Assembly: GCA_007135805.1 (NCBI GenBank)
Contig: SLID01000096.1
Coordinates: 1 to 38,277, forward strand
DNA from: Candidatus Omnitrophota bacterium
Lineage (GTDB): Bacteria; Omnitrophota; Gorgyraeia; Tantalellales; Tantalellaceae
Direction: 5' to 3'
Length of the DNA stretch: 38,277 nucleotides
Part shown: in pieces, positions 163-37,915 of the stretch
Layout of the letters: each line of letters opens with the position of its first letter
Position numbering within the stretch: the first letter of the stretch is position 1
Program-made: the position numbers and the translations under genes
The notes under the pieces: model-generated
Seen by the model: the letters and a program-made list of their open reading frames with translations, nothing else
What the model was told of the DNA's origin: nothing
Databases searched by the model: none

Positions 163-885
163 TCACATACTGAACCTTTCCCCAAGGTATATTTCCCTCG
201 CCTTGGGATCATTTATGAGCTCGTCTTTAGACCCGGAGATCAGTACCTGGCCCTCGTACATTATGTAAGACCTATCCGTTATGGTCAAAGTTTCCCTGAC
301 GTTGTGGTCCGTAAGCAGTATACCCAACCCCATATCTTTGAGTTCCCTTATAACCTCCTGACAATCATAAACCGCTATGGGGTCTATCCCGCTGAACGGT
401 TCGTCAAGCAGTATGAACATGGGATTCGTTACCAGCGTGCGCGTTATCTCAAGACGCCTTCTTTCCCCGCCCGACAGGGTATACGCTTTATTCTTCCTAA
501 GATGAGCTATTTTCAACTGGTTTAAAAGCCCGTCCAGCTGTCGGACCCTCTCTTTCCTCGGAAAACCCAGGGTCTCCATTATGGCCATAATATTTTCTTC
601 CACGGTCAGCTTACGGAATATGGAAGGTTCCTGGGAGAGGTAACCTATGCCGGACCTGGCCCTGCGGTGGATGGGAAGGCCTGTTATATCCTTCCTGTCG
701 AATATGACCTTACCCTTGTCAGGACTCACTATACCCGTAACCATATAGAATGTCGTTGTCTTGCCGGCGCCGTTGGGCCCCAGAAGGCCGACAACCTCAC
801 CCCTTTTCACGTTTATGCTAACTCCCTTGACAACGGCTCTGCCGCCGTATTCCTTCACCAGGTCCCTGGTCTCAAGTAAATGCAT
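163..885 (-). CDS. lptB: LPS export ABC transporter ATP-binding protein LptB
   Basis: 240 aa; Walker A GPNGAGKTT, signature LSGGERRRLEI, Walker B ILLDEPFSGIDP; LptB-typical length; adjacent to lptC/lptA-like gene. Confidence 0.95.
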   Translation of the reverse strand: MHLLETRDLVKEYGGRAVVKGVSINVKRGEVVGLLGPNGAGKTTTFYMVTGIVSPDKGKVIFDRKDITGLPIHRRARSGIGYLSQEPSIFRKLTVEENIMAIMETLGFPRKERVRQLDGLLNQLKIAHLRKNKAYTLSGGERRRLEITRTLVTNPMFILLDEPFSGIDPIAVYDCQEVIRELKDMGLGILLTDHNVRETLTITDRSYIMYEGQVLISGSKDELINDPKAREIYLGERFSM

Positions 886-1824: not shown

Positions 1825-2736
1825 TCACGCCGGCGGAGAACCTTCCCCGGGGGGAGCGGTCTTCCACCTTTTATGCACCCATACCCACTGTTCAGGGTAT
1901 TCGCGCGCGTATTTTTCAAGTAAGTCACTCCATTGCTGAGTGTATCGTCTTATCTCATCCTTGTCCCTGATCTTTTCAGGAACACGTATGGGTTTTTCCA
2001 TCACAATAGTATGTTTGTCGTTATCCCCCCTTACCACAAAGACCGGGACTATCGACGTTCCGGCGGTAGAAGCGATCTTGACAGGCGCGGTAGGAGTATG
2101 GGCCGGCTTTCCGAAAAAATCAACAAACACGCCGTCGATACTGTCCACATCCTGGTCGGGCACAATTCCCAGCACATTACCCTGTCTGAGTTCGGCAAGC
2201 ATCTTTTTTGGGGACTCGTCCCGGTATATGACCCGGGCGCCGAACCTTTCTCTCATCCCCACGATCATACTGTCATACTTCTCGAAATATATCCTTCTCA
2301 CTACGCACGCCCCCGGATACCCCAGGACTTTCATGCCTACACCGAGAAGTTCCCAGTTACCGAAATGGAACCCCAGCACAACAGCTCCCCTGCCTCCGGA
2401 CATGACCTCATCGAGATGTTCTTTTCCCCGCACTCCCTCTATAATACCGCTTACGCCGGAAGGCTTCATGTAAAGAAGCTTTATCCACTCGACACCGTTC
2501 TTGACAAAATTAACAAAGACCCGCTCCGCTGTTTTCACGTTACTTCCGCGGCGGTCCGGAAACACACGGTCAAGATTGAATACGGCCGTATCGCGGTACT
2601 TGCCGGCAAAACGGAAAGCCAGTCGCCCCAAACCCTCCGCGGCCCACAAGAGAAACTTAAGCGGTAACAACCTACTCAGGAAAAGAGCTAGCCTTAAGGC
2701 ATAGTATATGTAGTAACGACGGGTCTTTATCTTCAT
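1825..2736 (-). CDS. LpxL/HtrB-family lysophospholipid (lipid A) acyltransferase
   Basis: HFGNWE (HX4E) motif, GIVPDQDV, terminal WVWVHKRWK; start reassigned to MKIKTRRYYIYY (CAT at 2734-2736) to avoid overlap with queF. Confidence 0.88.
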   Translation of the reverse strand: MKIKTRRYYIYYALRLALFLSRLLPLKFLLWAAEGLGRLAFRFAGKYRDTAVFNLDRVFPDRRGSNVKTAERVFVNFVKNGVEWIKLLYMKPSGVSGIIEGVRGKEHLDEVMSGGRGAVVLGFHFGNWELLGVGMKVLGYPGACVVRRIYFEKYDSMIVGMRERFGARVIYRDESPKKMLAELRQGNVLGIVPDQDVDSIDGVFVDFFGKPAHTPTAPVKIASTAGTSIVPVFVVRGDNDKHTIVMEKPIRVPEKIRDKDEIRRYTQQWSDLLEKYAREYPEQWVWVHKRWKTAPPGEGSPPA

Positions 2737-2740
2737 GAAT

Positions 2741-3154
2741 CTACCGTGATGTTCCTGTTTCCTTGCGGGGATCATACTCAGCCTCAACGGTAGTCTTGAT
2801 CCCCCCTCTCACCCCGAAGATGCCCCTGACTTTCATGTACCGTGGAGAACACGTCCTGACAAGATCCTCCAGTAAACGGTTCACGACATGTTCATGGAAT
2901 ATGCCAAGATCCCTGTAAGCCAGCAAATATTCCTTGAAAGACTTAAGTTCAATACATTTCGCGTCCGGGGAATAATCGATCTCCAACCTGGCGAAATCCG
3001 GAAGTCCCGTCTTTGGACAAACACACGTAAACTCTTCCGTCTCAAAAAAAACATTGTACTGCTTGTCACTATACTCGTTGTCCCACGTACCTATACCAGG
3101 AAGCTCTATCTTCCTGATATCTCCCTGCAACGACTTGTAATCTTCTTTCCCCAT
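2741..3154 (-). CDS. queF: NADPH-dependent 7-cyano-7-deazaguanine reductase QueF
   Basis: EFTCVCPKTGLPDFARLEIDYSP...CIELKSFKEYLLAYRDLGIFHEHVVN typical QueF; start reassigned to MGKEDYKSLQ. Confidence 0.93.
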   Translation of the reverse strand: MGKEDYKSLQGDIRKIELPGIGTWDNEYSDKQYNVFFETEEFTCVCPKTGLPDFARLEIDYSPDAKCIELKSFKEYLLAYRDLGIFHEHVVNRLLEDLVRTCSPRYMKVRGIFGVRGGIKTTVEAEYDPRKETGTSR

Positions 3155-5610: not shown

Positions 5611-6570
5611 CTAAACCAGGCCGGCTTCCAGGATATCCTGGACATCCAGGATCCCGAGAGGCCTGTTCTTATCGTCAACCACCGGTATCTCGTCTATTTT
5701 TTTCCGCCGCAGAACATCGAAGGCCTCAGCGGCCAGCCGGTCTTTTGAGATAGTTACCGGTGAACATGTCATAACATCTTTTACCTTGGCGGTGCGGATA
5801 TCGGCGCCCTGTTCAAAGTTCCTGCGAAGGTCCCCATCGGTGAAAATACCTATCAGTTTACCCTTACCGTCCACAACACTCGCCGACCCCGCGCGCATCT
5901 CGGTTATTTTTACCAGAACATCCTTCACCATGGTATTCCCGCCGACCACCGGTGTTTTCGTTATCGGGCGCATTATGTCCTCCACCCTGAGGATAAGCCT
6001 CTTGCCTAAACTTCCGCCGGGGTGGAACATGGCAAAATCCTGGGGTTGAAATTTCTTTTTCTCGATCAGGGCTATCGCCAAAGCGTCTCCAAGCGCCAGC
6101 ATGGCCGTCGTGGAAGTCGTGGGAGCAAGCCCCATCGGGCAGGCTTCCTTGTCTACGGAGCTATCCAGGACAAAATCGCTGTTGACCGCTAAAGTGGAAT
6201 CCTTGTTGCCGGTTATCGATATCAGCCCAGACCCGATCTTTTTTATTATCGGGATAAGACGCACGACTTCCTCGGTCTCGCCGCTATTCGAAAAAGCTAT
6301 TATAACATCATCCCTGGTAACACGCCCCAGGTCTCCATGCAGCGCCTCAGCCGGATGAAGGTACAAAGACGGTGTCCCGGTGGACGCCATGGTAGCGGAA
6401 ACCTTCTGGGCTATAAAACCGGGTTTACCCATACCCGTGACTATGGCCCTTCCTTTGCTTGAGGCCAGAAGATCCACCGCGTCGGTAAAATCCTCGTTTA
6501 ACTTGGAAACAAGTTTTGCCACGGCGCGGCTTTCGTTCATGAGTACTTTTTTAGCGATGGGTACGCTCAT
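5611..6570 (-). CDS. kdsD: Arabinose-5-phosphate isomerase KdsD (SIS + CBS pair)
   Basis: SIS domain GRAIVTGMGKPGFIAQKVSATMASTGTPSLYLHPAEALHGDLG; two C-terminal CBS domains. Confidence 0.94.
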   Translation of the reverse strand: MSVPIAKKVLMNESRAVAKLVSKLNEDFTDAVDLLASSKGRAIVTGMGKPGFIAQKVSATMASTGTPSLYLHPAEALHGDLGRVTRDDVIIAFSNSGETEEVVRLIPIIKKIGSGLISITGNKDSTLAVNSDFVLDSSVDKEACPMGLAPTTSTTAMLALGDALAIALIEKKKFQPQDFAMFHPGGSLGKRLILRVEDIMRPITKTPVVGGNTMVKDVLVKITEMRAGSASVVDGKGKLIGIFTDGDLRRNFEQGADIRTAKVKDVMTCSPVTISKDRLAAEAFDVLRRKKIDEIPVVDDKNRPLGILDVQDILEAGLV

Positions 6571-7397
6571 ATATTCCTTACCGCCTTTTCAATTCGCTCA
6601 ATTCCGTCCAGGATACCGCCAAGCCCGCTCATCTTCACCATGTTAGGACCGTCACTTTTCGCCTTTGAAGGGTCCATGTGGACTTCCATGAAAATGCCGT
6701 CGCATCCCACAGCCGCGGCGGCTCTTGAAAGCGGCTCTACAAACCTCGATTCGCCTCCACTCGAAATGCCCATACCGCCGGGCCTCTGAACCGAATGGGT
6801 AGCGTCATAAACCACCGGACATCCCAGCTCCGCCATCTTGACAAGTCCCCTGAAATCATTTATCAAAGTGTTGTACCCGAAACTTGTTCCTCTTTCCGTA
6901 AGCATTATGTCTTTTCCGCCTCCGGACCTTACCTTTTCCACCACGTTTCTCATCTCTTCGGGAGACATGAACTGGCCCTTTTTGATATTGACCGGCTTAC
7001 CCGTTCCGGCTGCCTCTAAGAGAAGATCTGTCTGACGGCACAAAAAAGCCGGTATCTGTATAACGTCAAGGATCCGGGCGGCCGGGGCCACCTGCTCTAT
7101 GGAGTGGACATCGCTCATCACGGGCAATCCGGTCTCATCTTTCAGCTCTTTCAGGATCCTGAGCCCTTCTTTCAATCCAGGCCCCCTGAAAGATGCCGCC
7201 GAACTCCTGTTGGCTTTGTCGAAACTGGCTTTAAAAACAAAAGGCATTTTACGCTCGGTAGTTATTTTTTTTAGTGCCTGAGCGTTTTCCATAAGGCCTT
7301 CGGCGGACTCTATCACGCACGGTCCGGCAAAAAGAACGATGCTTTTGCCGGGGCCCAGTTCCACTTCTCCGATCTTGACTATACTGCTGTTTTCCAT
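6567..7397 (-). CDS. kdsA: 3-deoxy-8-phosphooctulonate synthase KdsA
   Basis: LFAGPCVIES, FKASFDKANRSS, FRGPG, MLTERGTSFGYNTLINDFR, YDATHSVQRPGG. Confidence 0.95.
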   Translation of the reverse strand: MENSSIVKIGEVELGPGKSIVLFAGPCVIESAEGLMENAQALKKITTERKMPFVFKASFDKANRSSAASFRGPGLKEGLRILKELKDETGLPVMSDVHSIEQVAPAARILDVIQIPAFLCRQTDLLLEAAGTGKPVNIKKGQFMSPEEMRNVVEKVRSGGGKDIMLTERGTSFGYNTLINDFRGLVKMAELGCPVVYDATHSVQRPGGMGISSGGESRFVEPLSRAAAAVGCDGIFMEVHMDPSKAKSDGPNMVKMSGLGGILDGIERIEKAVRNI

Positions 7398-7415: not shown

Positions 7416-8186
7416 CTACTTGTCTTTTTCCAACATGATCCGCCTGACCCTGTCCAGATCTTCCTGTGTATCCACTCCTATGGTCTCATGGCGCGTCTCG
7501 ATGGTCTTTATCTTATACCCGTGTTCCAGTACCCTGAGCTGTTCAAGCTTTTCGTCCATCTCAAGCATTGACCTTGGCAGGTTCCTGTAGGTAAAAAGAA
7601 AGTCCTTGGTGTACGAATAAAGCCCGATATGCTTGTAATATCCTCCCCGCAGACCGCTTCCGGTGGTGGCGGCGCTGTCACCGGCAGGACCGTCCGGCGC
7701 CATATAGGGTATGGGGCTTCTTGAAAAATAAAGAGCGAACCCCTTTCTGTCCACGACCACTTTAACAACCCCGGGATCATTTATATCCTCAGCCCGATCT
7801 ATCCTTTTTATGAGAGTAGCCATGAGCACGTTTTTCTCATACTCGAACACCTGAGCCAGCTGGTCTATCATAAGCGGGTCCACGAGCGGTTCATCCGCCT
7901 GGACATTTATGTAAACATCCGCGTCCACGGTAGCCGCTATCTCGGATATACGGTCCGTTCCCGAAGAATGGTCGGGAGAAGTAAATATCGCTTGCGCCCC
8001 GAAAGACTTGGCGGCTTTCAGCACTTTCTCCTTGTCACACGCGATCACGACCTCATCCACTGAATGCGCCTCGGAAACTCTTTCCCAGACATGCCGCAGC
8101 ATGGGTTTGCCGCATATATCGGCCAAAACTTTTTCTTTCAGCCTGGTCGAATGCCATCTTGCCGGAATAACAGCCACGATCTTCAT
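7416..8186 (-). CDS. kdsB: 3-deoxy-manno-octulosonate cytidylyltransferase KdsB
   Basis: VIPARWHSTRLKEKVLADICGKPM, INVQADEPLVDP, YFSRSPIPY. Confidence 0.95.
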   Translation of the reverse strand: MKIVAVIPARWHSTRLKEKVLADICGKPMLRHVWERVSEAHSVDEVVIACDKEKVLKAAKSFGAQAIFTSPDHSSGTDRISEIAATVDADVYINVQADEPLVDPLMIDQLAQVFEYEKNVLMATLIKRIDRAEDINDPGVVKVVVDRKGFALYFSRSPIPYMAPDGPAGDSAATTGSGLRGGYYKHIGLYSYTKDFLFTYRNLPRSMLEMDEKLEQLRVLEHGYKIKTIETRHETIGVDTQEDLDRVRRIMLEKDK

Positions 8187-9809: not shown

Positions 9810-10832
9810 TCAACGGAAAAGTAGTTGTTCTGACGCTTCCACGACATCCTGGACCGATATGTTGGCGAGACATCTGAAACCCGATACGCAATTATGCGCC
9901 AGACAGGGAACGCATCCGGCGGGAGAATGAAGTATCATTGCCTTCCGACTGACCGGGGCCCACCGCGATGGGGAAAGTCCCGGATCGTCGCGGCCGAATA
10001 TGACCACAACAGGCGTTCCGACCGCGGCGGCCAGATGCGCCGGTCCCGAATCATTGGAAATAACAAGTCGGCACAGCGAAAAGAACGCGGCGAGGTTTTC
10101 AAGGTCAAGCTCACCGGTAAGGTCCAAAACTCGGGCTTCCGTAAGTTTGACAAGCTGCGCGGCGTCCCCTTTGCAGGACCCGTCTCCCACCATGACAATG
10201 TCGACCCCTCGTCTCCCGGACAGTATATCCGCTACAGCCGCAAAACGCTCTATGGGCCACTTCTTTGAAGGACAGCTGGAACCCGCGTGTATCGCCATCA
10301 CATCACCTGAAATCCCTGAGCTCGATAACAGCTTTTTTACCTTATCCAAAGCCCTCGCGGACACCGGGACATGAGGTTCCCGGTCGGCATCCCGCGTATC
10401 GAAACCCGCGGCCGATATCACGTCAAGATTGTAATCAACCTCATGCTTTTCCCCCATCTGCTTCAAATGAGGCACACGCTCCGTAAGAAGCCAGCCGAGT
10501 TTCCGTCCATAACCTACACGGCGGCGTATTCCGGAAGCAAAAAGGATCAGATGAGTCCTGTTAGACGGATGTAGCGCTATGGCGAGGTCAAATTTCCTTT
10601 TACGGATCTCACGTATAAAACTTAAATTGCGAAGCACGCCTTTGTGTTCACCTTTCTTGTCATAGGCCAGTACTTCATCAACATCTGTGCCGGGGCCGGC
10701 CAGCGCCCGGTTTTCCCCCGCTATCATAAAAGCTATGTAAGCATCAGGACATGCCCTGCGTACCTGCCTCACCGCGGGCAAGGATAATATAACATCTCCC
10801 ATACGATCGGTGCGGGTTATGAGTATCCTCAT
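9810..10832 (-). CDS. Glycosyltransferase family 9 (heptosyltransferase-like)
   Basis: MRILITRTDRMGDVILSLPAVRQVR; VISNDSGPAHLAAAVGTPVVVIFG; C-terminal 4-Cys segment. Confidence 0.9.
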   Translation of the reverse strand: MRILITRTDRMGDVILSLPAVRQVRRACPDAYIAFMIAGENRALAGPGTDVDEVLAYDKKGEHKGVLRNLSFIREIRKRKFDLAIALHPSNRTHLILFASGIRRRVGYGRKLGWLLTERVPHLKQMGEKHEVDYNLDVISAAGFDTRDADREPHVPVSARALDKVKKLLSSSGISGDVMAIHAGSSCPSKKWPIERFAAVADILSGRRGVDIVMVGDGSCKGDAAQLVKLTEARVLDLTGELDLENLAAFFSLCRLVISNDSGPAHLAAAVGTPVVVIFGRDDPGLSPSRWAPVSRKAMILHSPAGCVPCLAHNCVSGFRCLANISVQDVVEASEQLLFR

Positions 10833-11347
10833 GATGCCGCCTCCCGGGATAACGAACCCAGTGTTTTCCGGTAAATATCGAGGTCACGATCCGAAAAACA
10901 AACGTAAACTATGCGGTCAAATAGCTCTGAGTTTTTCAGGCCTTCACGCAAAGCTACGAGCGCCGCTTTTTCCGGAGGATATCCGTAAACCCCGGTACTT
11001 ATTCCCGGAAAAGCTATCGACCGCAGACCGTGTCCGGCCGCGAGGGCGAAACATGAACAGTAGCTCAACCGCAGAAGTTCTTCTTCACCTTTGGCGCCTC
11101 CTCTCCAGACCGGTCCCGGGGTATGGATTATTTTTTTCGCGCCGAGCCGGCCGGCCCCGGTCATGACCGCTTTTCCGGTCGGGCAACCTCCAATCTTTCG
11201 GCACTCTTCCATTACCGACGGCCCCGCCGCGCGGTGGATCGCTCCGTCGACACCGCCGCCTCCCGAAAGTTTCGTATTAGCCGCGTTGACTATGACGTCT
11301 ACGGTTTCCAGCACTATATCGCCTTTTTTTATCTCTATATTTCCCAT
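10829..11347 (-). CDS. Macro domain (ADP-ribose-binding / O-acetyl-ADP-ribose deacetylase-like) protein
   Basis: IEIKKGDIVLETVDVIVNAANTKLSGGGGVDGAIHRAAG...CPTGKAVMTGAGRL...IHTPGP...SIAFPGISTGVYGYP; start reassigned to MGNIEIKKGD (11347); 4-nt overlap with downstream GT9. Confidence 0.92.
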   Translation of the reverse strand: MGNIEIKKGDIVLETVDVIVNAANTKLSGGGGVDGAIHRAAGPSVMEECRKIGGCPTGKAVMTGAGRLGAKKIIHTPGPVWRGGAKGEEELLRLSYCSCFALAAGHGLRSIAFPGISTGVYGYPPEKAALVALREGLKNSELFDRIVYVCFSDRDLDIYRKTLGSLSREAAS

Positions 11348-11382
11348 GGCCGTTCGCTCCGATACCGCCACACACAAAAACT

Positions 11383-12357
11383 TTACCCCAAAACCTTTCG
11401 CGCGCTCTCGAAGACAAGCTCTACACCTATCATCGGTATACAGCCGTCTTTGAGACCTTTCGCGCAAAGAGCTTTCCCGCAGGGCCTGCAAGGCATGTCA
11501 GGAAAAAGTATTTCACTTTTTTCAGACAAAGGCCCGTAATTTTTCTCATTGGAAGGCCCGAAAATGGCCACAGTAGGGGTTCCTGCGGCACTGGCAACAT
11601 GCAAAGGTCCGCTATCATTGGTCAGGAGCATATCGCTGCGCCTCATAAGCTCATAAAGCGCCCCGATCGTCGTTTTTCCCGTGAGGTCCGCTACTATTTC
11701 CTTATCTCTTACACATGAGATAATGGACGCGGCGGTTGCCGCGTCTTCTTCCCCTCCCACGATAAACACCCTCAAACCGTATTCGCCGCCGAGAAGGTCA
11801 ATAATTTCCGCGTATTTCCGGGCAGGCCATCTTTTCATGTGGCTTTTGGCTCCGGGAGAGATAGTTACGATCCTCTTAGCGGGAGTGTTTTCCTCTTCGC
11901 CTAAAATTCCGGCAACTAACACCCTGTCCTGTTCCGAAACGGGTATCATGAAACCCGCGTGGCTTGAATTTCGGACGCCGAGCCCCTTTATGACCCTGAG
12001 ATGCATATCTCGCATATGTCCCGACTTACGGGCGAAGGGGATGAGTGGGACAGCCCTCCTGGCGCCCACCAGAAGGGGGACCAGCGAATTTTTTAGATCC
12101 ACCGCGATGTCGTACTTTTCTCTCCTCCAACCGATGATCTCGGCTATCCTTTGGGCCATACTCTGTCTTTTCCGGCGCACTGTGACCTTCCGCACGGCGG
12201 GATCCGGCCCGAATATGGACTTTCCGGACGGCCCTGAAACCACATCTATGACAGCGTCCGGGAAAAGCTCCCTGAGCTTTCTGAACACCGGTGTGGTGAG
12301 CACAATATCACCCACATTGCTCAAGCTTATGAACAGTATTTTTTTTACGTTATCCAT
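11383..12357 (-). CDS. Glycosyltransferase family 9 (heptosyltransferase-like)
   Basis: KKILFISLSNVGDIVLTTPVFRKLRELFP; LLTNDSGPLHVASAAGTPTVAIFGPS; start reassigned to MDNVKKILF (12357). Confidence 0.9.
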   Translation of the reverse strand: MDNVKKILFISLSNVGDIVLTTPVFRKLRELFPDAVIDVVSGPSGKSIFGPDPAVRKVTVRRKRQSMAQRIAEIIGWRREKYDIAVDLKNSLVPLLVGARRAVPLIPFARKSGHMRDMHLRVIKGLGVRNSSHAGFMIPVSEQDRVLVAGILGEEENTPAKRIVTISPGAKSHMKRWPARKYAEIIDLLGGEYGLRVFIVGGEEDAATAASIISCVRDKEIVADLTGKTTIGALYELMRRSDMLLTNDSGPLHVASAAGTPTVAIFGPSNEKNYGPLSEKSEILFPDMPCRPCGKALCAKGLKDGCIPMIGVELVFESARKVLG

Positions 12358-13456: not shown

Positions 13457-14585
13457 TTTTTCCCCTTACACCGCCTCCCCGGCGCCAGCAGGCAAGCGCT
13501 CTTTCGTAGACTTCCATAGTCCTGGAAACAGTTTTTTGTAATGAAAATTCGCGAGCCCTTTCGCGGGCGGCGAGGGACAGCTTTTCAGCCAGATCTCCGC
13601 TGGAAATGACCCGGCGGATAGCGTCTGTAAGAGCGGGAACCGAACCCGGGGGGACTACAAGACCTTCCCTCCCGTCGGTCACTATCTCTGTAAGCCCCCC
13701 CACATCGCTTACCAGACAAGGTTTTCCGGCTGCCATCGCTTCCACGACCGCCAGACCGAATCCCTCTGAAAGAGAAGGCATGCAAAAAATATCCATCGCC
13801 GCCAGGTATTCCTGGAGGGGTTCAGGCCCGTCCACGAAAAAGACCCTACTCCGGACACCGTAACTTTCAGCCCGCTCCGCGAGATCTTTTTCTTCGGGAC
13901 CTGACCCTACCATCAAAAGATAAAGATCCTGTCTTTCCTTAGCTAACGACGCGAAAGCCTCGACCAGATAACGGAACCCCTTAACGGATGAAAACCGGCC
14001 TACGCTGCCTATTACTGCCGCGTCTACGGGTATTCCGGTCTTTTTAAGTGTTTCAGCCCTCGATCCGGGAGAAATATTCACACAGCGTTCCAGGTCTATC
14101 CCGTTGTATACAAGTTCCACCTTCTCCCGTGGTACCTTGAGTTCTGTGACAAGATGTTCCCTTACGCTTTCGGATATGGCTATAGTCCTATCGCCCCAAC
14201 AGGGCAGAAGTCTCCTTGACAATCTCGTATGCTTGAACCTGCCGTGGCATGTCGTAACATAGGGCGTACCCGCGGCCATTTTTACAACCTCCGCCATAAC
14301 CTGGGTAACACGTGTCTGGGCATGCACGAGATCGAAATCTCCGTCTTTGACCACTCGGATCATTCCAGGCAGGGCCCGCCACACGCGAGGCGAAAATTCC
14401 GCTTTTGTCCTTATATCGGCTTTTATATGCTGGACACCATACTCTTCAAGACCCCCGGCAAGTTGCCCTCCCGAGGAAAACACAGCCGTTTCCACCCCCG
14501 CCAGCTTCAGATGCCCGGCAAGTCCTACAGTGTAGGACGCTATTCCGCCCTTGTCGAGATGTGTAGTCGCTATTAAAACCCTGAT
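13446..14585 (-). CDS. Glycosyltransferase family 4
   Basis: GSVGRFSSVKGFRYLVEAF..., MPSLSEGFGLAVVEAMAAGKPCLVSDVGGLTEIV. Listed ORF begins at an internal GTG (14495); homologous-looking N-terminus (I)RVLIATTHLDKGGIASYTVGLAGHLK extends to an ATC codon at 14585-14583 behind GGAGGTGA. Confidence 0.8.
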   Translation of the reverse strand: MRVLIATTHLDKGGIASYTVGLAGHLKLAGVETAVFSSGGQLAGGLEEYGVQHIKADIRTKAEFSPRVWRALPGMIRVVKDGDFDLVHAQTRVTQVMAEVVKMAAGTPYVTTCHGRFKHTRLSRRLLPCWGDRTIAISESVREHLVTELKVPREKVELVYNGIDLERCVNISPGSRAETLKKTGIPVDAAVIGSVGRFSSVKGFRYLVEAFASLAKERQDLYLLMVGSGPEEKDLAERAESYGVRSRVFFVDGPEPLQEYLAAMDIFCMPSLSEGFGLAVVEAMAAGKPCLVSDVGGLTEIVTDGREGLVVPPGSVPALTDAIRRVISSGDLAEKLSLAARERAREFSLQKTVSRTMEVYERALACWRRGGGVRGKNER

Positions 14586-16696
14586 GTCTCTCTCACCTCC
14601 TCATCCGCCCGGCAGGCTAGATCTACAAGAGCTTGGTAAACCTCATCGACCTTCACAGAACTCATGCATTTGAGCCCTCGGGAACACGAAGTCTTGTAGC
14701 ACGGGGAACATTTCATGTTTTTCCGCAATATCTTTTTTCCGGCACAGACCGGACTATGCCTGTCCGGATCAGTCGGGCCGAATATCGCCACGAAAGGCGT
14801 ACCCACCGCCGCCGCGATATGCATCGGGGCGCTGTCGCCCGTAAGAAGGGCGTCACATCTTTTCAAAAGACTTATAAGGCGTCCAATGTCGGTTTTTCCG
14901 ACCGCGTCCAGCGGTTTCGCGGAAGTTTTTTTAAAAAATTCTTGTGATATTTCAATATCATCCTCGACACCTATAGCCACCACACGTATACCTTTTTTCG
15001 AAGCCAGCGTATCAGCCAATTCCGCCATCCGTGAAACGCTCCAGTTCTTGGTTTTCCAGCGCTTTGAGGCCGAAACACTTATAGCTACCAGTTTCTGTCC
15101 GCTCTTAAGCCATCCCGAACTTAAGAATTTTTCGACCCACTCCTCTCCGGATCTCCCGCTCCAGAGTTCCAGACGTTCATCGACTTTTGTAACACCCGCC
15201 AAAGCAAGCACCCGTGATTGGTGCTCCACCGGGGACAAGCTCCCACCGGGAAGAGATACTTTCCTGTTCAGGAGAAAACTAAACTTACCGTTGTCATAAC
15301 CATACCTCTCGGGTATGGCCGCCAAAAACGCCATCAAGTGGCTTTTCCGGTTATTTTGCAGGTCTATGGAAATATCGAAATCTTCCGACCGCAGCCTCTC
15401 CAGAAAGCTGAAAAATCCTGTCCCTCTTTCTCTCCCTCTGATATCGCAGGTAATCACCTCGTCCACATACGGGCATCCTTCAAGCACTCCACTAAAACGA
15501 AAGTCCACAAGGACCTTTACGACCGCGTCTTCATACTTTTTTCTTATCGCCCTCAGAGAAGGAACACTCAGGATCACATCCCCCAGAGAACTTATTTTTA
15601 TGACCAGTACATTTCTCCGGCTGAGAGCTTCGGTATAAACTTCTAGTTCCCGTTCCAGAGAGTCCTTGAGGGAGTACCGCCGCTCCACCTGCTCGCGGGA
15701 CGTTACGGCTATTCTGTCCATAAGTTCCGCGTCTTCAGCGTACATTATTATCTTCTTAGCCATGTCCAGCGGATCCATGGGAGAACACAACAGGCCGGTC
15801 ACGTTATCGGAAACATTCTCAACAACGCCGCCCACACACGTAGCGACTACGGGAACTCCCCTCGCCTGAGCCTCTATAACAGTCCTGCCGAAGGCCTCCT
15901 GCGCGGTACTGGCCGATACCAGGACATCCAGTTCCCCCATAACAGAAGCGACTTCCTCGCCGCTATCCTTGATTTCCACTATCTTGTCAATACCCAGCCG
16001 CCTGGCGGTAAGCTCAAGGTCTTTTATATACTCGGGATTGGCCGAGGAAATATCTCCCATCATTATCGCTTGCACATTACGCATCTTGCGCGAGACATAC
16101 GAAACCGCTTTAAGGAAATCCTTGTGCCCTTTGATCGGGGAGTACCTGGCCACCATGCCGATCCGGAAGATCTTTTTCGCGCGCTCCGAAGGAGCGCTGA
16201 ACGAGAACTCTTCAAGGTCCACTCCTCTCGAGACTATGGCCATCTTCTGAGTACTTACGCCAAAATTCTCGTTCATGTACCGCGCCATGGTCGTGTTGGC
16301 CACTATCACCGTTTTCCCCCACCCCATAACCCTGCTTATGAGATGCCTCCTGTAATGCCCGTGAGCGGTTGTTATAAAAGTTTTGCGCGTCGACCGCGCC
16401 GCGAAGTATCCAGTAAGAGCCGGTATCCTGCTCCTGGCGTGAACTATATCGATGTTCTCTTTTTTTATTATTTTTTTCAATTTAAGATAGGAGTAGAAAA
16501 CATGGAACGGGTTTTTACGCCCTACAGGAAGAGTGTAATGCCTCACCCCGGCGGCGGACAGGCTCCTGACCAGACGGCCTCCTCCCGAGACGACGACCGA
16601 CTTATGGCCCTTAATGGCAAGGAAACGGGCCACTTCTACCGCGCTTTTCTCAACACCGCCCACATTCAATTCGGGCACCAGCTGAAGAACGTTCAT
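14573..16696 (-). CDS. Two-domain glycosyltransferase: N-terminal GT4 fused to C-terminal GT9
   Basis: 707 aa; residues ~1-360 GT4 (MNVLQLVPELNVGGVEKSAVEVA...AFGRTVIEAQARGVPVVATCVGG), residues ~361-707 GT9 (RNVLVIKISSLGDVILSVPSLRAIR...LLTGDSAPMHIAAAVGTPFVAIFGPTDPDRHSP). Confidence 0.88.
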   Translation of the reverse strand: MNVLQLVPELNVGGVEKSAVEVARFLAIKGHKSVVVSGGGRLVRSLSAAGVRHYTLPVGRKNPFHVFYSYLKLKKIIKKENIDIVHARSRIPALTGYFAARSTRKTFITTAHGHYRRHLISRVMGWGKTVIVANTTMARYMNENFGVSTQKMAIVSRGVDLEEFSFSAPSERAKKIFRIGMVARYSPIKGHKDFLKAVSYVSRKMRNVQAIMMGDISSANPEYIKDLELTARRLGIDKIVEIKDSGEEVASVMGELDVLVSASTAQEAFGRTVIEAQARGVPVVATCVGGVVENVSDNVTGLLCSPMDPLDMAKKIIMYAEDAELMDRIAVTSREQVERRYSLKDSLERELEVYTEALSRRNVLVIKISSLGDVILSVPSLRAIRKKYEDAVVKVLVDFRFSGVLEGCPYVDEVITCDIRGRERGTGFFSFLERLRSEDFDISIDLQNNRKSHLMAFLAAIPERYGYDNGKFSFLLNRKVSLPGGSLSPVEHQSRVLALAGVTKVDERLELWSGRSGEEWVEKFLSSGWLKSGQKLVAISVSASKRWKTKNWSVSRMAELADTLASKKGIRVVAIGVEDDIEISQEFFKKTSAKPLDAVGKTDIGRLISLLKRCDALLTGDSAPMHIAAAVGTPFVAIFGPTDPDRHSPVCAGKKILRKNMKCSPCYKTSCSRGLKCMSSVKVDEVYQALVDLACRADEEVRETSGF

Positions 16697-16734: not shown

Positions 16735-18687
16735 CTAAAAAAGGCGGTAAAGCTTTTTTCTTATCAAACTACCGTCCAGGGGCAGGACGGGGCGATCCGC
16801 ACTTTCAAGAGCCCGGCGCGCCCCATCAGCTATATCAACGGGATCCACCAGGGCCAGGTATCCCCGCTCCGCCAGACGCGTAGTGAACCTTTCATACTTG
16901 GTCATCTTCCGCGCGGCTTTTTCCGGCATGAACACCAGTACACGTTTCCCGGAAGAGACCGCTTCGGATACCATGGAAATACTTTCACCGGAGACCACCA
17001 AAAGGTCGCATTTTTCCATCATTTTCCTGACAGTCCCGGGATCTTTATCGGAACTACCCATCACCAGGGTCCCGGTCCTCGAGTACCCTTTGAGCGTCTT
17101 TTCCGCCGCATGTTCCGCTTCGCGAGACGTGCGTCGTGACGTCGTCACATGCAAATACCCGCCGGAACCGTCACAGAAAGCCATGGCCTGCCGGAGAACG
17201 GTCTCCACGATCCTGCCGGGCATCCTGAAATACTTATTTTCCCCTCCTATCAAAACTCCGACATCCAGTTTTCCCTTTCTGCCGGGAGGGCCTTCCCCGC
17301 TGATCCCGAAAGAACCCGCGCCTTCAGCCCCAACAAGGTTCGGCGCGAGTTCCGTAACAACAACATTACTCTGTTTTTCCGCCTCCACGCCTTTCTCCGG
17401 TCGTATATCGTGACGGGGTATGATGACCAGGTCGAATTTCCCGCGGAGCGCTCGGCCCGGATCCAGCACAACCACACCACGAGCGTAATTTTCTATCTTG
17501 AGCATCCGGTTAACAGACGAAAGTCCCGATCCTGTACTTATAAATATGTCAGCGTACTCGCTCAAAAGCGCCTCGCAACTTTGTTTCGCGAGCGCCCACC
17601 GCAAAAGCGCGGGCCTGCCCTGAAAAGCCGGACCGAAGAAGGGCGACAGTCCTTTGAAAACCGATCTCCGAAAAACGTTCTTGAAATCCACGCTCACCGT
17701 CTTGACGCGTATATTGTCGGGGTCGTGTCCTTCGCTTTCTCTGTATTTTCTTATCTCGCTCACCACAGCCATCGACTGGTTAAGATGCCCTTTTCTGCCG
17801 TCATTCAGAACAACAACTTTTTTAACCGGGTTCATCTTCCACTTCTTGTGCATCCAGAACCATTGAGTGGGATCCTGGCGTATATGTTTCTCCAGAAGCC
17901 GGTTATACTTTTCCATGTAGGGCACGATGTCGTCATTCTTGCCTATCGACATGATCTCTTCCAGTATCAGCTCGTGATAAGGCCCTTTTCTGCGGTGTAT
18001 GAACGCGGGTAAAATAAGCGCGCCTTCTTTCTGTGCCAGCCGGTAAGGGCCGATAGCAGTAGAGGCGGGGCGTCCGAAAAGCTCAAGAAGTTCACCGTGA
18101 ACTCCCGCGTTCTGGTCCGCCAGTATACCGACGCTACTACCCTCTTTCAGCACCCTTATAAGCCTTTTTATATCGGTCCCTTTCCTCACTACTATGCTGC
18201 CTTTGGATTCCCGAAGTTTATTGAAAAGTTCGTTGAGTTTTTTCAGTTTCTGGTCCCTGGCCAGCACATAAAGAGGGAAACCTTTGGCCGCGCTCACCGC
18301 GAGGCTCAGCTCCCAGTTTCCGAAATGCGCCGATATCAAGATCATCCCGCGCGGGTTCTTCGCGGCGCTCTGTATCCTCTCAAAGTTCGTAACATGGACA
18401 TACTTCTCTATATAACGGGCATCCACTTTTGTCATCGCGATAAGTTCCGCGAAGATCTGCGCCGCGTGCGTGTAAGAACCTCTGGCTATAACCCGTATCT
18501 CTTCCGGAGACTTCTCATGACAGAAAGACGCCCTTATGTTGGAATAAGTAACCCTCTTTCTTTTACCGCTTAACATGTAAAAGATCCCGCTCAGAGACCG
18601 CCCCAGCCAGAGATTGAACCTCATAGGCATAAAGTGCAGAAAGCGGTTAAGCAGAAGTATCGCGAAAGACACTATCAAGTCCAGCAA
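16735..18687 (-). CDS. Fusion: LpxL-like acyltransferase + ELM1-like (DUF1022) domain
   Basis: 650 aa; N-term ISAHFGNWELSLAV...QWFWMHKKWK (LpxL/M-like), then KKVVVLNDGRKGHLNQSMAVVSEI...DIFISTGSGLSSVN...LIGGENKYFRM...LLVVSGESISMVSEAVSSGKRVLVF typical of ELM1/DUF1022. Confidence 0.82.
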   Translation of the reverse strand: MLDLIVSFAILLLNRFLHFMPMRFNLWLGRSLSGIFYMLSGKRKRVTYSNIRASFCHEKSPEEIRVIARGSYTHAAQIFAELIAMTKVDARYIEKYVHVTNFERIQSAAKNPRGMILISAHFGNWELSLAVSAAKGFPLYVLARDQKLKKLNELFNKLRESKGSIVVRKGTDIKRLIRVLKEGSSVGILADQNAGVHGELLELFGRPASTAIGPYRLAQKEGALILPAFIHRRKGPYHELILEEIMSIGKNDDIVPYMEKYNRLLEKHIRQDPTQWFWMHKKWKMNPVKKVVVLNDGRKGHLNQSMAVVSEIRKYRESEGHDPDNIRVKTVSVDFKNVFRRSVFKGLSPFFGPAFQGRPALLRWALAKQSCEALLSEYADIFISTGSGLSSVNRMLKIENYARGVVVLDPGRALRGKFDLVIIPRHDIRPEKGVEAEKQSNVVVTELAPNLVGAEGAGSFGISGEGPPGRKGKLDVGVLIGGENKYFRMPGRIVETVLRQAMAFCDGSGGYLHVTTSRRTSREAEHAAEKTLKGYSRTGTLVMGSSDKDPGTVRKMMEKCDLLVVSGESISMVSEAVSSGKRVLVFMPEKAARKMTKYERFTTRLAERGYLALVDPVDIADGARRALESADRPVLPLDGSLIRKKLYRLF

Positions 18688-19699
18688 TTAAACTCTCCTT
18701 TCCTTCGGTTATATCGATCTGTATATTTAGGGCCAGGGAAATATCCTCGATACCGGACATGTCCAGGTCCCTCATCTTAACCAGGTCCTTGCGGGTCGTG
18801 ACAATATTGTCGATCCCCGATGAAGCGCGGTAACGGCTTATCTCGTCCAGATCTTCCTGCCTGTACTTGTAATGGTCCGGATAAAAGAACTTTTTTTCCA
18901 CAACACAACCCATCCGGGCCATGATAGAGTCAAGGTAAAGCGGGTCGGCTATGCCGCATACAAGACATACCTTGCGCCCTTCAACAACATCAAGCCCGTA
19001 GGAAGAGCCGGTCAAGTCACGGAAAGACACGGGAAGATGCCTTGAAAGCATAACGGGCTTCTCTCCGGACTCGGCGGCGACGCGCTCTTTTATGCTCCGG
19101 ATCTCCTCCGGGGTAAAACCGTCGACCTTTGTAATGACTACCATATCCGCCCTGCGTAACGCGTCATGGGGTTCCCTAAGCGCTCCGGCCGGAAAAATAA
19201 AACCGTTACCAAAAGGGGCTCTCGCGTCCACAAGCAGTATATTAAGGTCCCTCGCTAACCTCCTGTGCTGGAAACCGTCATCCAGTATGGCCACATCCCT
19301 GCCGTCACGGGCGGCTTTCAACACATTTTTTACCCTGTCCTGGCCTTTATAAACAGGCACTTCCGGAAGTTCATCGGCAAGCATCCTGCATTCATCGTTA
19401 CCATATCCTCTTGTCAATACCGCCGGCTTTCTTTTGGAAGCGGTAAAATGATCGGCTATAAATATTGTCATCGGGGTTTTTCCGGTACCTCCAAGCGTCA
19501 GGTTGCCCACACTGACGACAGCGATAGGCGCTTTGTGAACACGCCTTATTCCCGAACGGTATCCGGCGCGGACCAGATACACACCTAAAGCGTATAAGCG
19601 TGAAAGTATCCTGAGAAAAAGTCCCGGGGGTTTGCCGCCCGTTTCGCCCGAATGGCCCGGGATAAGCACCTCAGGACAAGAAAAAACCAACTTAAACAC
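18647..19699 (-). CDS. lpxK: Tetraacyldisaccharide 4'-kinase LpxK
   Basis: VVSVGNLTLGGTGKTPMTIFIAD, LTRGYGNDE, ILDDGFQHRRLARDLNILLVDA. Confidence 0.94.
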   Translation of the reverse strand: MFKLVFSCPEVLIPGHSGETGGKPPGLFLRILSRLYALGVYLVRAGYRSGIRRVHKAPIAVVSVGNLTLGGTGKTPMTIFIADHFTASKRKPAVLTRGYGNDECRMLADELPEVPVYKGQDRVKNVLKAARDGRDVAILDDGFQHRRLARDLNILLVDARAPFGNGFIFPAGALREPHDALRRADMVVITKVDGFTPEEIRSIKERVAAESGEKPVMLSRHLPVSFRDLTGSSYGLDVVEGRKVCLVCGIADPLYLDSIMARMGCVVEKKFFYPDHYKYRQEDLDEISRYRASSGIDNIVTTRKDLVKMRDLDMSGIEDISLALNIQIDITEGKESLIAGLDSVFRDTSA

Positions 19700-20996
19700 C
19701 TCCGTGTTCCGCCTCGAAATGTCCCGGGTCGGAAATACAGCTCATTATGACCTCTACCGTTCTCTCAACCGCGCCGGAGTTCCCGGTAATGACGTCCCGG
19801 GACCTTTGTTCCATATCTTTCCTCTTCTCTTCGTCTTCGAGAAGCCGGGATAATACCTCCCCGAGAACCTCTTCTCCGGGAACCGTCAACGCCGCCCCGC
19901 TTTCCAGGAACGCCTCCGCGACTTCGCGAAAGTTGCGCATGTTGGGGCCGAAAACAACCGCTTTTCCCCATATACCCGCCTCAATAGGGTTCTGGCCGCC
20001 TTTTTTTGCCAAGCTCCCGCCTATAAATACCAGCGCAGCCAAACTGTATATATCCCTAAGATGCCCTATGGTATCCACTATCATCACATCGGCCCCGTCG
20101 ACAGTCCGAGAACACGGGGAAACTAAATCCGAAAAAAAACAGCATTTAAAACCCGCTCTCTCGGCGTATATCCTTACAGCGTCTTTTCGCTCTACGTGCC
20201 TGGGAGCTATTATAAACTTGATATCTTCGAACTTGCCGCGAAGCCCGCCGAAAGCGTCTATCAGATGTGTCTCTTCGGGAAAATGCGTACTGCCGGCCAC
20301 TATGGCCTTTTTTCCCGCGAGGAAAAGTTCTCTCACGCTCTCAACCTCGGGGGATATCCGGTCCGGACGTACCGCGTCGAACTTTATATTACCGGTAACA
20401 TGTACCGCTGAAGGCTCACAACCGAGAGTTTTGATCTTTTCGGCGTCCCGGTGAGTTTGAACACATACAGACGAAAGACACTTAAGCATTTTACGGGTGA
20501 TAAAACCGATCCTCTTGTAATTCCTGAAAGACCCGTCCGATATCCGCCCGTTGGCAAGTATGACAGGTATAGAACGTTTGGCCGCCTCCCGAAGCATGTT
20601 GGGCCATAACTCGGTCTCGACTATCACATACGCTCTCGGGTCCACTTTGTCAAGCACCCGGGAAACAACACATCTGAGGTCCACCGGATAGTAAAAAACC
20701 GCGTCAGCGCCGGAGGCGGCTTTTTTTATCATCTCGTTCCCCGTGGATGTGGTCGTGGAAATAACTACCGGGACATCGGGCATCACTTTTTTCATACCCT
20801 GTGAAATACGCGCCGCCACCAGAGCTTCTCCAACGCTGACAGCGTGTAACCACACGGGTTTTCTCAAGTGCGCGGCTTCAGCCGGAACACGCCCCAGTTT
20901 CTGCGAAAAACCTCTGTGAAACTTGCCCTTAAAGACCATTACCGGAAAATACAGGGTCATAAAAACAAGAAAGGAAATATCGTATAAAAATCTCAT
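19692..20996 (-). CDS. waaA: 3-deoxy-D-manno-octulosonic acid transferase (KdtA/WaaA)
   Basis: KPVWLHAVSVGEALVAARI, ISTTTSTGNEM, VETELWPNMLREA, FIGGSLAKKGGQNPIEAGIWGKAVVFGPNMRNF. Confidence 0.94.
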   Translation of the reverse strand: MRFLYDISFLVFMTLYFPVMVFKGKFHRGFSQKLGRVPAEAAHLRKPVWLHAVSVGEALVAARISQGMKKVMPDVPVVISTTTSTGNEMIKKAASGADAVFYYPVDLRCVVSRVLDKVDPRAYVIVETELWPNMLREAAKRSIPVILANGRISDGSFRNYKRIGFITRKMLKCLSSVCVQTHRDAEKIKTLGCEPSAVHVTGNIKFDAVRPDRISPEVESVRELFLAGKKAIVAGSTHFPEETHLIDAFGGLRGKFEDIKFIIAPRHVERKDAVRIYAERAGFKCCFFSDLVSPCSRTVDGADVMIVDTIGHLRDIYSLAALVFIGGSLAKKGGQNPIEAGIWGKAVVFGPNMRNFREVAEAFLESGAALTVPGEEVLGEVLSRLLEDEEKRKDMEQRSRDVITGNSGAVERTVEVIMSCISDPGHFEAEHGGV

Positions 20997-35125: not shown

Positions 35126-37915
35126 TCAGGCAGAAATAAGCGCCCGGAGTTTACGCGCGTATTCTTCTTTCAGTTGGTTCGGGTTTACGGGCCTGCTCTC
35201 GGGAACGATCAGTATTACCATTCTTGCCAGGGGGTCGTATTGCCCGGATTTTATCATACCTATCCTGTCGGGGTCACGCACAACCGACCCGCTTGCCAGT
35301 TCCAGCACAAGTGTCAACATGGAAATAATGTCGATAACCGGTTCCTGTCCCGGGTATTCTCTGTAAAACTCGTTTATATTAGAGTTATCCACTCCGGCCA
35401 TAAACGGCATATTTTGCGGTTCGGTCTTAAGGTTACCAAGCTTCTCTTCGACCGTCGCCTGAGAAGCAAGTACCACGACGTTCGAAAGACCGGTCCCTGT
35501 ATCTCTGGCCGTCCGGAGTATGTCACGCTCAAGAACATCACTTCCGCTGTGGACAAGGACCACATTGTCCAAACCTATAGACCTCAAAGTATCGCCTATT
35601 CCTCTTAATTCCCTTAATAGCGGGTTCATGGCGTCATTTTGAGGATGTCCGCCTTTTCCCAGTCCGGGAACCCATTCTGTTTCAAGCCCGATTATAAGTT
35701 TCTGACCCATCCTCCGGGCCCTTCGCGCGAGAACGATGATCCCGGCTACCATGCCGTCGGCCTGTATTTGATCTATATTTTCTCTTACATGTTCTCGCCT
35801 TCTAGCTACCTCATCAGGTATGATTTCTGAACTACTGTCAAGCGCGACCAACGCGGCCTTTATGCTTTCAACCATCTCGGCAGTCGACCTTTTCCGGTCT
35901 ATAGATTCCAGAGCGGCGCCGTCCTTCGCCGAGGTCCTCGCGAAACCAACAAGCTCATTAGCGGCGCTTTCCCCTTCAGCGCGCCGGCTGTTCAGCGCCG
36001 TCTCCAGACGCCCCGTAATGCCCTCCTCTTCAAGCTGGCGGGACGCTTCAGCTTCACCTGAAGAGATCGGGGCCCGATCGGCCGAGTCCGGAACAATGCT
36101 CTCACCCGGCCCGGTTTCCGGAGCAACGTGAGGGTCTTCTGTTCTTTCTCTAGCAAAAATCGTTATAGACGTAAGCCTGTCCCTTTTTTGAAAAGATTCA
36201 ACAATGTTTTCCCCATTCATCGTCATCATCACATCGGCGCCACTATCAAATATGATAGCGTCTTTCATGCCCATGTCGGACAGGACCTTCTGAGCTTCCT
36301 TGAAAGTTATGCCCGACCTGTTTGACTCGCCGGGCACAACAACCGAAACAAGGTTCCCGTCATTATCGATACACACAATATTATGGGGGTTAACACCGCG
36401 CATGAACCCGATCTTTATAGTCCCCTCTTCTCTATTGATAAAAAATTTGCCGTAATCGACCTCTCCGGCCGACAAAACCTTTTCGTATCCCTTTTCATTG
36501 ATAAGATTTTCTTCAAGACTGTCCACCTGACCTTCAGTGAGAGGTGTTATAACCTCAGTCACCTCGCCTTTTTCAAGGCGATTCTCCTTATCCGCAAGAG
36601 GCAACTCAACCGGTTTCCCGCTAACGGCGTCACGCATGAGCTGTTCGACCGGATTGCCTTTTTTATCGTAAAACAGGTTAACCCCGAAATGCGCATTGGC
36701 TTCCGGTATGAACGGAAAATCCAGGTAATGCCTCACATCGTAACCATGCTCATAATTTTCGGCCAGGTCATACGGCTCTCCATCCTTAAGAATACCGATA
36801 CCGGCGTTTACGAAGAGTACCTCATCTCTGATGTTCGTGCCTGTACCCATCCTGATGATCTTGCCGTCCTGCAGATACTCTACTTCCTCTATACTGAAAT
36901 GTCCGTCGTTCCACATAACAAGCGACGGATATACCCTACTGTCTCCCTGATATATCCTGTAAAGCTCCTGTTCAATAGCGTATTTTCTGCCTTTAACAAC
37001 AGAAACAAGATGGGCATTGGCAAGTATGTTACCGTTACCCACAAAACCTAACACCTCCATATCGGGGTGATCTTTTTTAAATCGCTCAATGTGCTGGTCG
37101 ACGGTCCAGACATCTTTTCTGACATTTTCATGATCGGGAGCCAGATCCGGCACATCCCTGACCTCACCATCGGTTAGCTGGTATTTGAAATGTGACGGGG
37201 TCCTGTCCCTCAAAATTCCCCAGCTTTTCTCAATATCCGGCTGAAAAACGGGGAACACCTCAATACCGCTCGGAAACCTCGCGACAGCCATTTTTGTTTC
37301 CGTTGCGCGTTCGCTTCTGAAATCCCTGACATCCACATCGACCGCGGGAGCGCCTCGTCTCGAATCGGCGAGGGATATATCCGGCTGTACAAAAGTACCC
37401 GCGGCTCTCAGGGGCCTTCCCTCAAGGTCGAATTCTTTGACAGCGTAACTGCCGATAGTATAATCGTACCCGGCAAGCTCATTGGCTGAAATGTTAACGG
37501 CAGGCCTTATAAGAAGATTTACCGTTGTCTCAGGAGATATTCGTCTGTCCGCGATATACGGCACGATCAATGCTGAGGGATCTTGCGGATGCGGCCTGAC
37601 GTTCTCAAGATCAAAATTTTCCGCGGCCTCACCATACTCAATTTCAAGAACACGCCCCAGGTAATTCAAAAGGCGTTCCGTATCGGCGATCCCGGGCGAA
37701 AAATACCAGTCAGCGATAGCAAGCGCGATCCCTTTCTTTCCTATTATTTCCCTGGTCCCCGGCATCTGAAGAGAGCTCCATACCGCAAGCGTATCTGTAA
37801 CATTGTCCCGGAATGATATTTTTGAAAGCGGGTACAATGCTGATACATCCAGAACAAGAAAAGAAACCACTACTGTGATCGAGACCACTTTAAAAACCGC
37901 AGAACCTTTCCTCAT
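35126..37915 (-). CDS. Large putative secreted multidomain protein with diverged phosphodiester-glycosidase-like (NAGPA/DUF2233) segment
   Basis: 929 aa; N-terminal signal/anchor MRKGSAVFKVVSITVVVSFLVLDVSA; segment ~285-590 with GITFKEAQKVLSDMGMKDAIIFDSGADVMMTMNGE; acidic/Ser-rich linker ~590-640; separate C-terminal domain ~720-929; RBS GGAGGAAATTAATG. Confidence 0.7.
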   Translation of the reverse strand: MRKGSAVFKVVSITVVVSFLVLDVSALYPLSKISFRDNVTDTLAVWSSLQMPGTREIIGKKGIALAIADWYFSPGIADTERLLNYLGRVLEIEYGEAAENFDLENVRPHPQDPSALIVPYIADRRISPETTVNLLIRPAVNISANELAGYDYTIGSYAVKEFDLEGRPLRAAGTFVQPDISLADSRRGAPAVDVDVRDFRSERATETKMAVARFPSGIEVFPVFQPDIEKSWGILRDRTPSHFKYQLTDGEVRDVPDLAPDHENVRKDVWTVDQHIERFKKDHPDMEVLGFVGNGNILANAHLVSVVKGRKYAIEQELYRIYQGDSRVYPSLVMWNDGHFSIEEVEYLQDGKIIRMGTGTNIRDEVLFVNAGIGILKDGEPYDLAENYEHGYDVRHYLDFPFIPEANAHFGVNLFYDKKGNPVEQLMRDAVSGKPVELPLADKENRLEKGEVTEVITPLTEGQVDSLEENLINEKGYEKVLSAGEVDYGKFFINREEGTIKIGFMRGVNPHNIVCIDNDGNLVSVVVPGESNRSGITFKEAQKVLSDMGMKDAIIFDSGADVMMTMNGENIVESFQKRDRLTSITIFARERTEDPHVAPETGPGESIVPDSADRAPISSGEAEASRQLEEEGITGRLETALNSRRAEGESAANELVGFARTSAKDGAALESIDRKRSTAEMVESIKAALVALDSSSEIIPDEVARRREHVRENIDQIQADGMVAGIIVLARRARRMGQKLIIGLETEWVPGLGKGGHPQNDAMNPLLRELRGIGDTLRSIGLDNVVLVHSGSDVLERDILRTARDTGTGLSNVVVLASQATVEEKLGNLKTEPQNMPFMAGVDNSNINEFYREYPGQEPVIDIISMLTLVLELASGSVVRDPDRIGMIKSGQYDPLARMVILIVPESRPVNPNQLKEEYARKLRALISA

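Follow-up and report, generated by a model that had tools for sequence, protein, structure and literature searches.

A phylum-wide LpxL-ELM1 fusion protein in Candidatus Omnitrophota, a candidate linked Kdo transferase and lipid A acyltransferase

Introduction

In the genome of a Candidatus Omnitrophota bacterium, one open reading frame joins a lipid A acyltransferase of the LpxL type to an ELM1 domain. The locus, found in a window of 38,277 nucleotides (the whole stretch of DNA that was analysed), raises the question of whether the fusion is genuine and which step of lipopolysaccharide assembly its second half may perform. Each of the two domains is of a known family. In the literature searched, no description was found of their covalent combination, its phylum-wide fixation or the variant with LpxK as partner, nor of the LPS or lipid A of Omnitrophota.

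The name "mitochondrial fission", by which the ELM1 family has long been known, is misleading. The original prediction on this locus considered that bacterial members have no settled function, a view that is now outdated. In Acinetobacter baumannii, mutants first linked the ELM1-like protein 2903/GtrOC1 to the Kdo3 step (PMC10936431); in December 2025 the same protein was described as KdoT, a CMP-Kdo:Kdo2-lipid IVA transferase that adds KdoIII (PMC12856342), and its key residues are present in the fusion. KdoT does not use Kdo-free lipid IVA as acceptor and cannot initiate, while tetra-acylated Kdo2-lipid IVA is preferred, with about 40% versus 20% conversion (PMC12856342). The arginines of its SRRT motif, R179 and R180, are located near the donor carboxylate, and R180A and R180Q lose most function; on the acceptor side D8, H13, H109 and D110 are individually dispensable, the D8A, H13A, H109A and D110A variants keeping activity (PMC12856342). 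Since a kdoT mutant is complemented by KdoT homologues from Rickettsia and Acinetobacter (PMC12856342), this function is not restricted to a single genus.

Two complete domains in one reading frame

The predicted continuous frame of 650 aa is present on the minus strand, running from 18687 to 16735 without internal stop (Table 1). The gene shares its first 41 nt with the 3' end of lpxK, an overlap that suggests translational coupling. In hmmscan against Pfam the protein matches exactly two families, Lip_A_acyltrans (161.6 bits against a cut-off of 22.3, E 3e-47, profile positions 16-294 of 295) and Mito_fiss_Elm1 (130.3 bits against a cut-off of 27, E 1e-37, profile positions 2-279 of 304), both far above cut-off; no match to Glycos_transf_N (PF04413), the domain of WaaA and family GT30, was obtained in the same search. 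The acyltransferase half is complete and carries its HX4E motif, as had been proposed. The linker is very short: QWFWMHKKWK closes the first half at about residue 284, and in the model the ELM1 fold has its first strand from residue 289, in agreement with the start at about residue 287 given by the original prediction. The genome of the window, a fragmented draft of 137 contigs, contains a single ELM1 domain and three Lip_A_acyltrans genes, and only this one of them is fused.

Residues 14-289 match the LpxL protein of solved structure (PDB 5kn7) with an E value of 1.3e-14 in phmmer, and the HX4E dyad (H121 and E126), R159 and D191 are invariant among 65 homologues. The fusion scores far below all NCBIfam equivalog and subfamily cut-offs for LpxL, LpxM or LpxP equivalence; thus the assignment is restricted to the broad Lip_A_acyltrans family. 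The E. coli LpxL enzyme acts on a Kdo2 acceptor.

AlphaFold2 models the full fusion with pLDDT 91.3 and pTM 0.87 (65 sequences) and the ELM1 half alone, as a GT-B fold, with pLDDT 93.9 and pTM 0.91 (74 sequences). The top PDB matches of this half in Foldseek are all GT-B proteins, among them UDP-GlcNAc 2-epimerases, MGD1, MshA and GT9 enzymes, with TM-scores near 0.5, and none of them is specific for a donor. The fold, given as GT-B-like in the original prediction, is thus settled by the model. Searching PDB sequences with a profile built from the ELM1 alignment gave no solved structure of an ELM1 relative.

Table 1. Coordinates of the fusion gene, its domains and motifs, neighbouring genes in the window, and LpxK-ELM1 loci in other genomes
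Feature	Coordinates	Strand	Remarks
LpxL-ELM1 fusion gene	16735..18687	minus	650 aa, TTG start
Putative ribosome-binding site AAGGAG	18695..18700	minus	directly 5' of the TTG start at 18687, read directly
Lip_A_acyltrans (LpxL-like) domain	17836..18669	minus	residues 7-284, PF03279
HX4E acyltransferase motif HFGNWE	18310..18327	minus	residues 121-126
ELM1 (Mito_fiss_Elm1, KdoT-like GT-B) domain	16843..17790	minus	residues 300-615, PF06258
NDGRKGH	17785..17805	minus	residues 295-301; D296 and H301 correspond to KdoT D8 and H13 by spacing
PRHD	17407..17418	minus	residues 424-427; H426-D427 are proposed counterparts of KdoT H109-D110
SRRT	17128..17139	minus	residues 517-520; R518-R519 correspond to KdoT R179-R180 (donor-carboxylate arginines)
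lpxK (lipid A 4'-kinase)	18647..19699	minus	directly upstream of the fusion
waaA/kdtA (Kdo transferase, Glycos_transf_N)	19692..20996	minus	two genes upstream of the fusion
GT4-GT9 fusion glycosyltransferase	14573..16696	minus	directly downstream of LpxL-ELM1
kdsB, CMP-Kdo synthetase (makes the proposed donor)	7416..8186	minus	TIGR00466 above cut-off
kdsA, Kdo-8-phosphate synthase	6567..7397	minus	TIGR01362 above cut-off
kdsD-like SIS-CBS arabinose-5-phosphate isomerase	5611..6570	minus	
Unfused LpxL	1825-2787		adjoins the LptC-LptA fusion
LptC-LptA fusion	949-1812	minus	LptC and LptA/LptD_N domain in 287 aa
ABC ATPase	163-885		adjoins the LptC-LptA fusion
LpxK-ELM1 loci	L085:6915-9071; L096:6921-9080; L073:2894-5134; L079:1813-3984; L147		

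Operon and neighbouring genes

Domain annotation of the window bears out the predicted location of the fusion between lpxK and LPS glycosyltransferase genes. The conserved gene order is topA-xerC-waaA-lpxK-[LpxL-ELM1]-GT4/GT9: lpxK lies directly upstream in 68 of the 69 fused loci that have upstream sequence, for 58, waaA is found within 3 kb, and in 65 fused loci GT4/GT9 genes follow at most 2.5 kb downstream. The window also holds an hldE-like kinase gene and several GT9 genes.

Other genes of the window show unusual architectures. The product of the gene directly downstream (707 aa) has a GT4 domain at residues 12-334 joined to a GT9 heptosyltransferase domain at residues 430-673, an arrangement found also at L085:9062-11212. 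A macro-domain protein (10829-11491, minus strand) is inserted amid the heptosyltransferase genes, and the central part of a 929-aa protein (35126-37915, minus strand) is a NAGPA phosphodiester glycosidase domain.

Distribution across the phylum

The LpxL-ELM1 fusion is a phylum-wide trait of Candidatus Omnitrophota. The protein finds matches in 192 of 193 genomes of the phylum, and among the matches listed most of the best ones are full-length, in a single open frame some 600-830 aa long. Among named genomes 80 loci were detected, 79 of them in Candidatus Omnitrophota, including Ca. Omnitrophus magneticus, Ca. Aadella gelida and Ca. Tantalella remota; they comprise 73 LpxL-ELM1 fusions (66 complete at both ends), 4 LpxK-ELM1 fusions, 2 loci cut by contig ends and 1 unfused gene. 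Sequence identity across the phylum is 30-47%, with near-invariant pocket motifs. Beyond Omnitrophota ELM1 is uncommon; in the phylum of a Geobacteraceae MAG discussed below it is present in 4 of 148 genomes.

An error of assembly or annotation could be suspected in a draft as fragmented as that of the window. Such an origin is practically negligible and an assembly artefact is ruled out, given that the same continuous frame recurs across independent assemblies, the 66 complete copies among the 80 loci included, and that a chromosome-level record (CP070837) carries the LpxK-ELM1 version. Relatives thus share the fusion instead of having two separate genes.

ELM1 is present in 177, WaaA in 179 and kdsB-type matches in 191 (185 above cut-off) of the 193 genomes. 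The 16 genomes in which ELM1 is missing include ten that also lack lpxK and six that have it, and in all six a contig end falls inside lpxK or the LpxL domain; no loss of ELM1 with a readable region downstream of lpxK was found among the 193 genomes. Two of the ten, G079 (two contigs) and G114, are without waaA, lpxK, ELM1 and a genuine kdsA, and their kdsB matches are weak; they possibly have no Kdo-lipid A, though acyltransferase-like matches persist. Since they lost ELM1 together with the pathway, they do not discriminate the ELM1 step. The exception to the fusion is G143, where the sole ELM1 gene stands unfused between fmt and a GT9 gene, away from lpxK.

A further genome, G102, had been a candidate for ELM1 without WaaA and was dropped, as its upstream stretch is masked with N. 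In another Omnitrophota MAG an ELM1 match of 326 bits (L141, G066:C39) stands far above its neighbours, and the contig is likely contamination.

The ELM1 domain and KdoT

The homology between the fusion and KdoT was judged from the Pfam family, the motif spacing and the published residue numbers. Each of the six KdoT residues that PMC12856342 discusses has a counterpart in the fusion (D296, H301, H426, D427, R518 and R519), and the spacing of 5 from D to H is identical in the fusion (D296-H301) and in KdoT (D8-H13). Among Omnitrophota-type rows (n=140, some duplicated between search routes), D296, H301, D427, R518 and R519 are each found in all 139 readable ones, and H426 in 138. ELM1 relatives from elsewhere, encoded by Roseomonas, Pseudomonas and Methylobacterium plasmids and by G216, keep the second arginine, while the HD pair is mostly missing. 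With these few comparators, the retention of HD in Omnitrophota suggests from sequence that their domain is KdoT-like. Conversely, much of the ELM1 family shares SRRT, also relatives outside LPS synthesis such as the one in a sphingolipid-like cluster of Roseomonas, and the motif does not by itself specify Kdo; moreover, as the KdoT variants D8A, H13A, H109A and D110A are still active, conservation of these sites is no proof of catalysis.

The family occurs in other settings too. On a Roseomonas mucosa plasmid (L037:918-8723) an unfused ELM1 gene is clustered with genes for an acyl carrier protein, a PLP aminotransferase, a fatty acyl-AMP ligase and an SDR; the cluster resembles sphingolipid synthesis and suggests that other ELM1 acceptors exist. 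Proteins of 780 to 866 aa have ELM1 towards the C-terminus (L036:3639-5981, L128 and L129), and in L036, the one that was scanned, the N-terminal half has no Pfam match. G216 has two ELM1 genes side by side, and the Omnitrophota genome G020 has two extra unfused paralogues (L136 and L137), one with SLRT and HS replacing SRRT and HD.

In some Omnitrophota the partner of the domain is different. A frame of 718-746 aa joins LpxK to ELM1 at L073, L079, L085 and L096, as well as in G002, which lies outside the class of the window; the identification is based on Pfam for L085 and on profile search for all. The genomes of the four L-loci have separate, unfused LpxL genes elsewhere. In the tree these four form a single clade (100/100), and a single origin is not rejected when G002 is added (SH-aLRT 93). 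Given the gene order lpxK-[LpxL-ELM1], the simplest route to this form would be removal of the LpxL segment and joining of the remaining parts in frame. Finally, in the Geobacteraceae MAG (L051) an unfused ELM1 gene directly follows lpxA-lpxB, and its product is nested in the clade of fused proteins to which that of the window belongs (99/99). This position points to transfer and loss of the LpxL portion, a reading that calls for the caution customary with MAGs. The ELM1 domain is attached to lipid A enzymes in three different ways, which argues for an action at the lipid A stage of the pathway.

Proposed function and alternatives

The ELM1 half is likely a glycosyltransferase of the inner core that acts on lipid A precursors, and its donor, judging from the residues shared with KdoT, is probably Kdo from CMP-Kdo, the kdsA, kdsB and kdsD genes of the window speaking in favour of it. 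Taken as a whole, the fusion is best read as a bifunctional enzyme in which both linked sites are active and the donor is Kdo, and we assign to this reading a probability of roughly 0.57. The protein would act at the inner membrane in late lipid A assembly. WaaA would add the first Kdo or Kdos to the lipid IVA that LpxK supplies; the C-terminal domain, as an inverting GT-B transferase of KdoT type, would then add a further Kdo beyond those of WaaA, with the carboxylate of this Kdo held by the SRRT arginines, and the N-terminal domain would place a secondary acyl chain on the same Kdo-lipid IVA through its HX4E site. The covalent linkage may keep these two acceptor-sharing steps together at the membrane, prior to core extension by the GT4/GT9 enzymes. 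The original prediction of a sugar transferase in lipid A or core assembly agrees with the operon, the GT-B model, the LpxK-ELM1 form and the unfused copy behind lpxA-lpxB; its proposal of acylated lipid A as acceptor does not hold as well, since KdoT prefers tetra-acylated Kdo2-lipid IVA (PMC12856342), so that Kdo-lipid IVA whose late acylation is pending or under way is a likelier acceptor than finished acylated lipid A.

Against the bifunctional reading, the retained WaaA could add all Kdo alone. As for the donor, a lipid A or inner-core glycosyltransferase using ADP-heptose or a UDP- or GDP-sugar would suit a family that is functionally broad, with ELM1 in the sphingolipid-like cluster of Roseomonas and in proteins of 780 to 877 aa without LPS partners; the GT-B proteins matched in the PDB do not point to a particular donor, and the hldE-like kinase gene is at hand in the window. 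Such a donor is nevertheless unlikely, because the GT9 genes of the window already cover heptose transfer, the sole biochemically defined ELM1 relative found in the searched literature is a CMP-Kdo transferase, and the H and HD residues on the acceptor side of KdoT, kept here, are lost in most of the non-LPS relatives examined. A more radical view would deny catalysis altogether and make of the ELM1 half a scaffold or regulator positioning WaaA, LpxK and LpxL, as plant ELM1 recruits dynamin-related proteins (PMC10936431) and the exchange of LpxL for LpxK would fit a tether; pocket motifs that stay near-invariant at the low identities observed across the phylum, together with arginines in SRRT that a pure scaffold would not need, render it very improbable.

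The bifunctional Kdo enzyme itself admits a sub-case, in which ELM1 adds the second Kdo and not an extra third one, the WaaA of Omnitrophota being monofunctional. Nearly all ELM1-bearing genomes have WaaA, and the action of E. coli LpxL on a Kdo2 acceptor would explain why the supplier of that Kdo is fused to the acyltransferase. Monofunctional WaaA enzymes do exist (PMC10936431), but A. baumannii KdoT cannot initiate and only KdoIII was added in vitro (PMC12856342), so that we keep this sub-case as a tentative one, with the odds against it.

As to the broader significance, it seems an even bet that Omnitrophota possess, phylum-wide, a covalent Kdo transferase/late acyltransferase (in one sublineage a Kdo transferase/4'-kinase), physically coupling inner-core Kdo addition with lipid A maturation in a way undescribed elsewhere. 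One Omnitrophota protein may then perform two neighbouring lipid A steps. In 2025 ELM1-like proteins were reassigned to inner-core sugar transfer; the LpxL fusion, the LpxK fusion and the adjacency to lpxA-lpxB give this assignment independent support and widen it beyond Proteobacteria to include an uncultured phylum. The fusion also yields specific predictions for Omnitrophota LPS, and it offers a natural single-chain enzyme for studying the order of Kdo addition and late acylation.

Comparison with known systems

The closest known counterpart of the second half is A. baumannii KdoT, which has in common with it the ELM1 family, the GT-B fold, the counterparts of D8/H13, H109-D110 and SRRT, and a core/lipid A context. 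However, KdoT is a separate single-domain protein of the core locus and works with GnaT, whereas the domain described here is joined to LpxL (or LpxK) in a lipid A operon; furthermore, H13 has been reported as not conserved outside Acinetobacter, while the Omnitrophota fusion keeps its equivalent. WaaA/KdtA (GT30) shares with the fusion the GT-B fold, the operon and CMP-Kdo as proposed donor, but it is encoded by a separate upstream gene and has the Glycos_transf_N domain that the fusion does not match. With LpxL/HtrB, the Kdo2-lipid IVA lauroyltransferase of the PDB 5kn7 family, the full Lip_A_acyltrans domain and the HX4E motif are common, the fusion differing by its additional C-terminal glycosyltransferase domain of 365 aa. 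Finally, the LpxK-ELM1 protein of the Omnitrophota sublineage has the same ELM1 domain and operon position as LpxL-ELM1, with the 4'-kinase LpxK as N-terminal partner in place of the acyltransferase.
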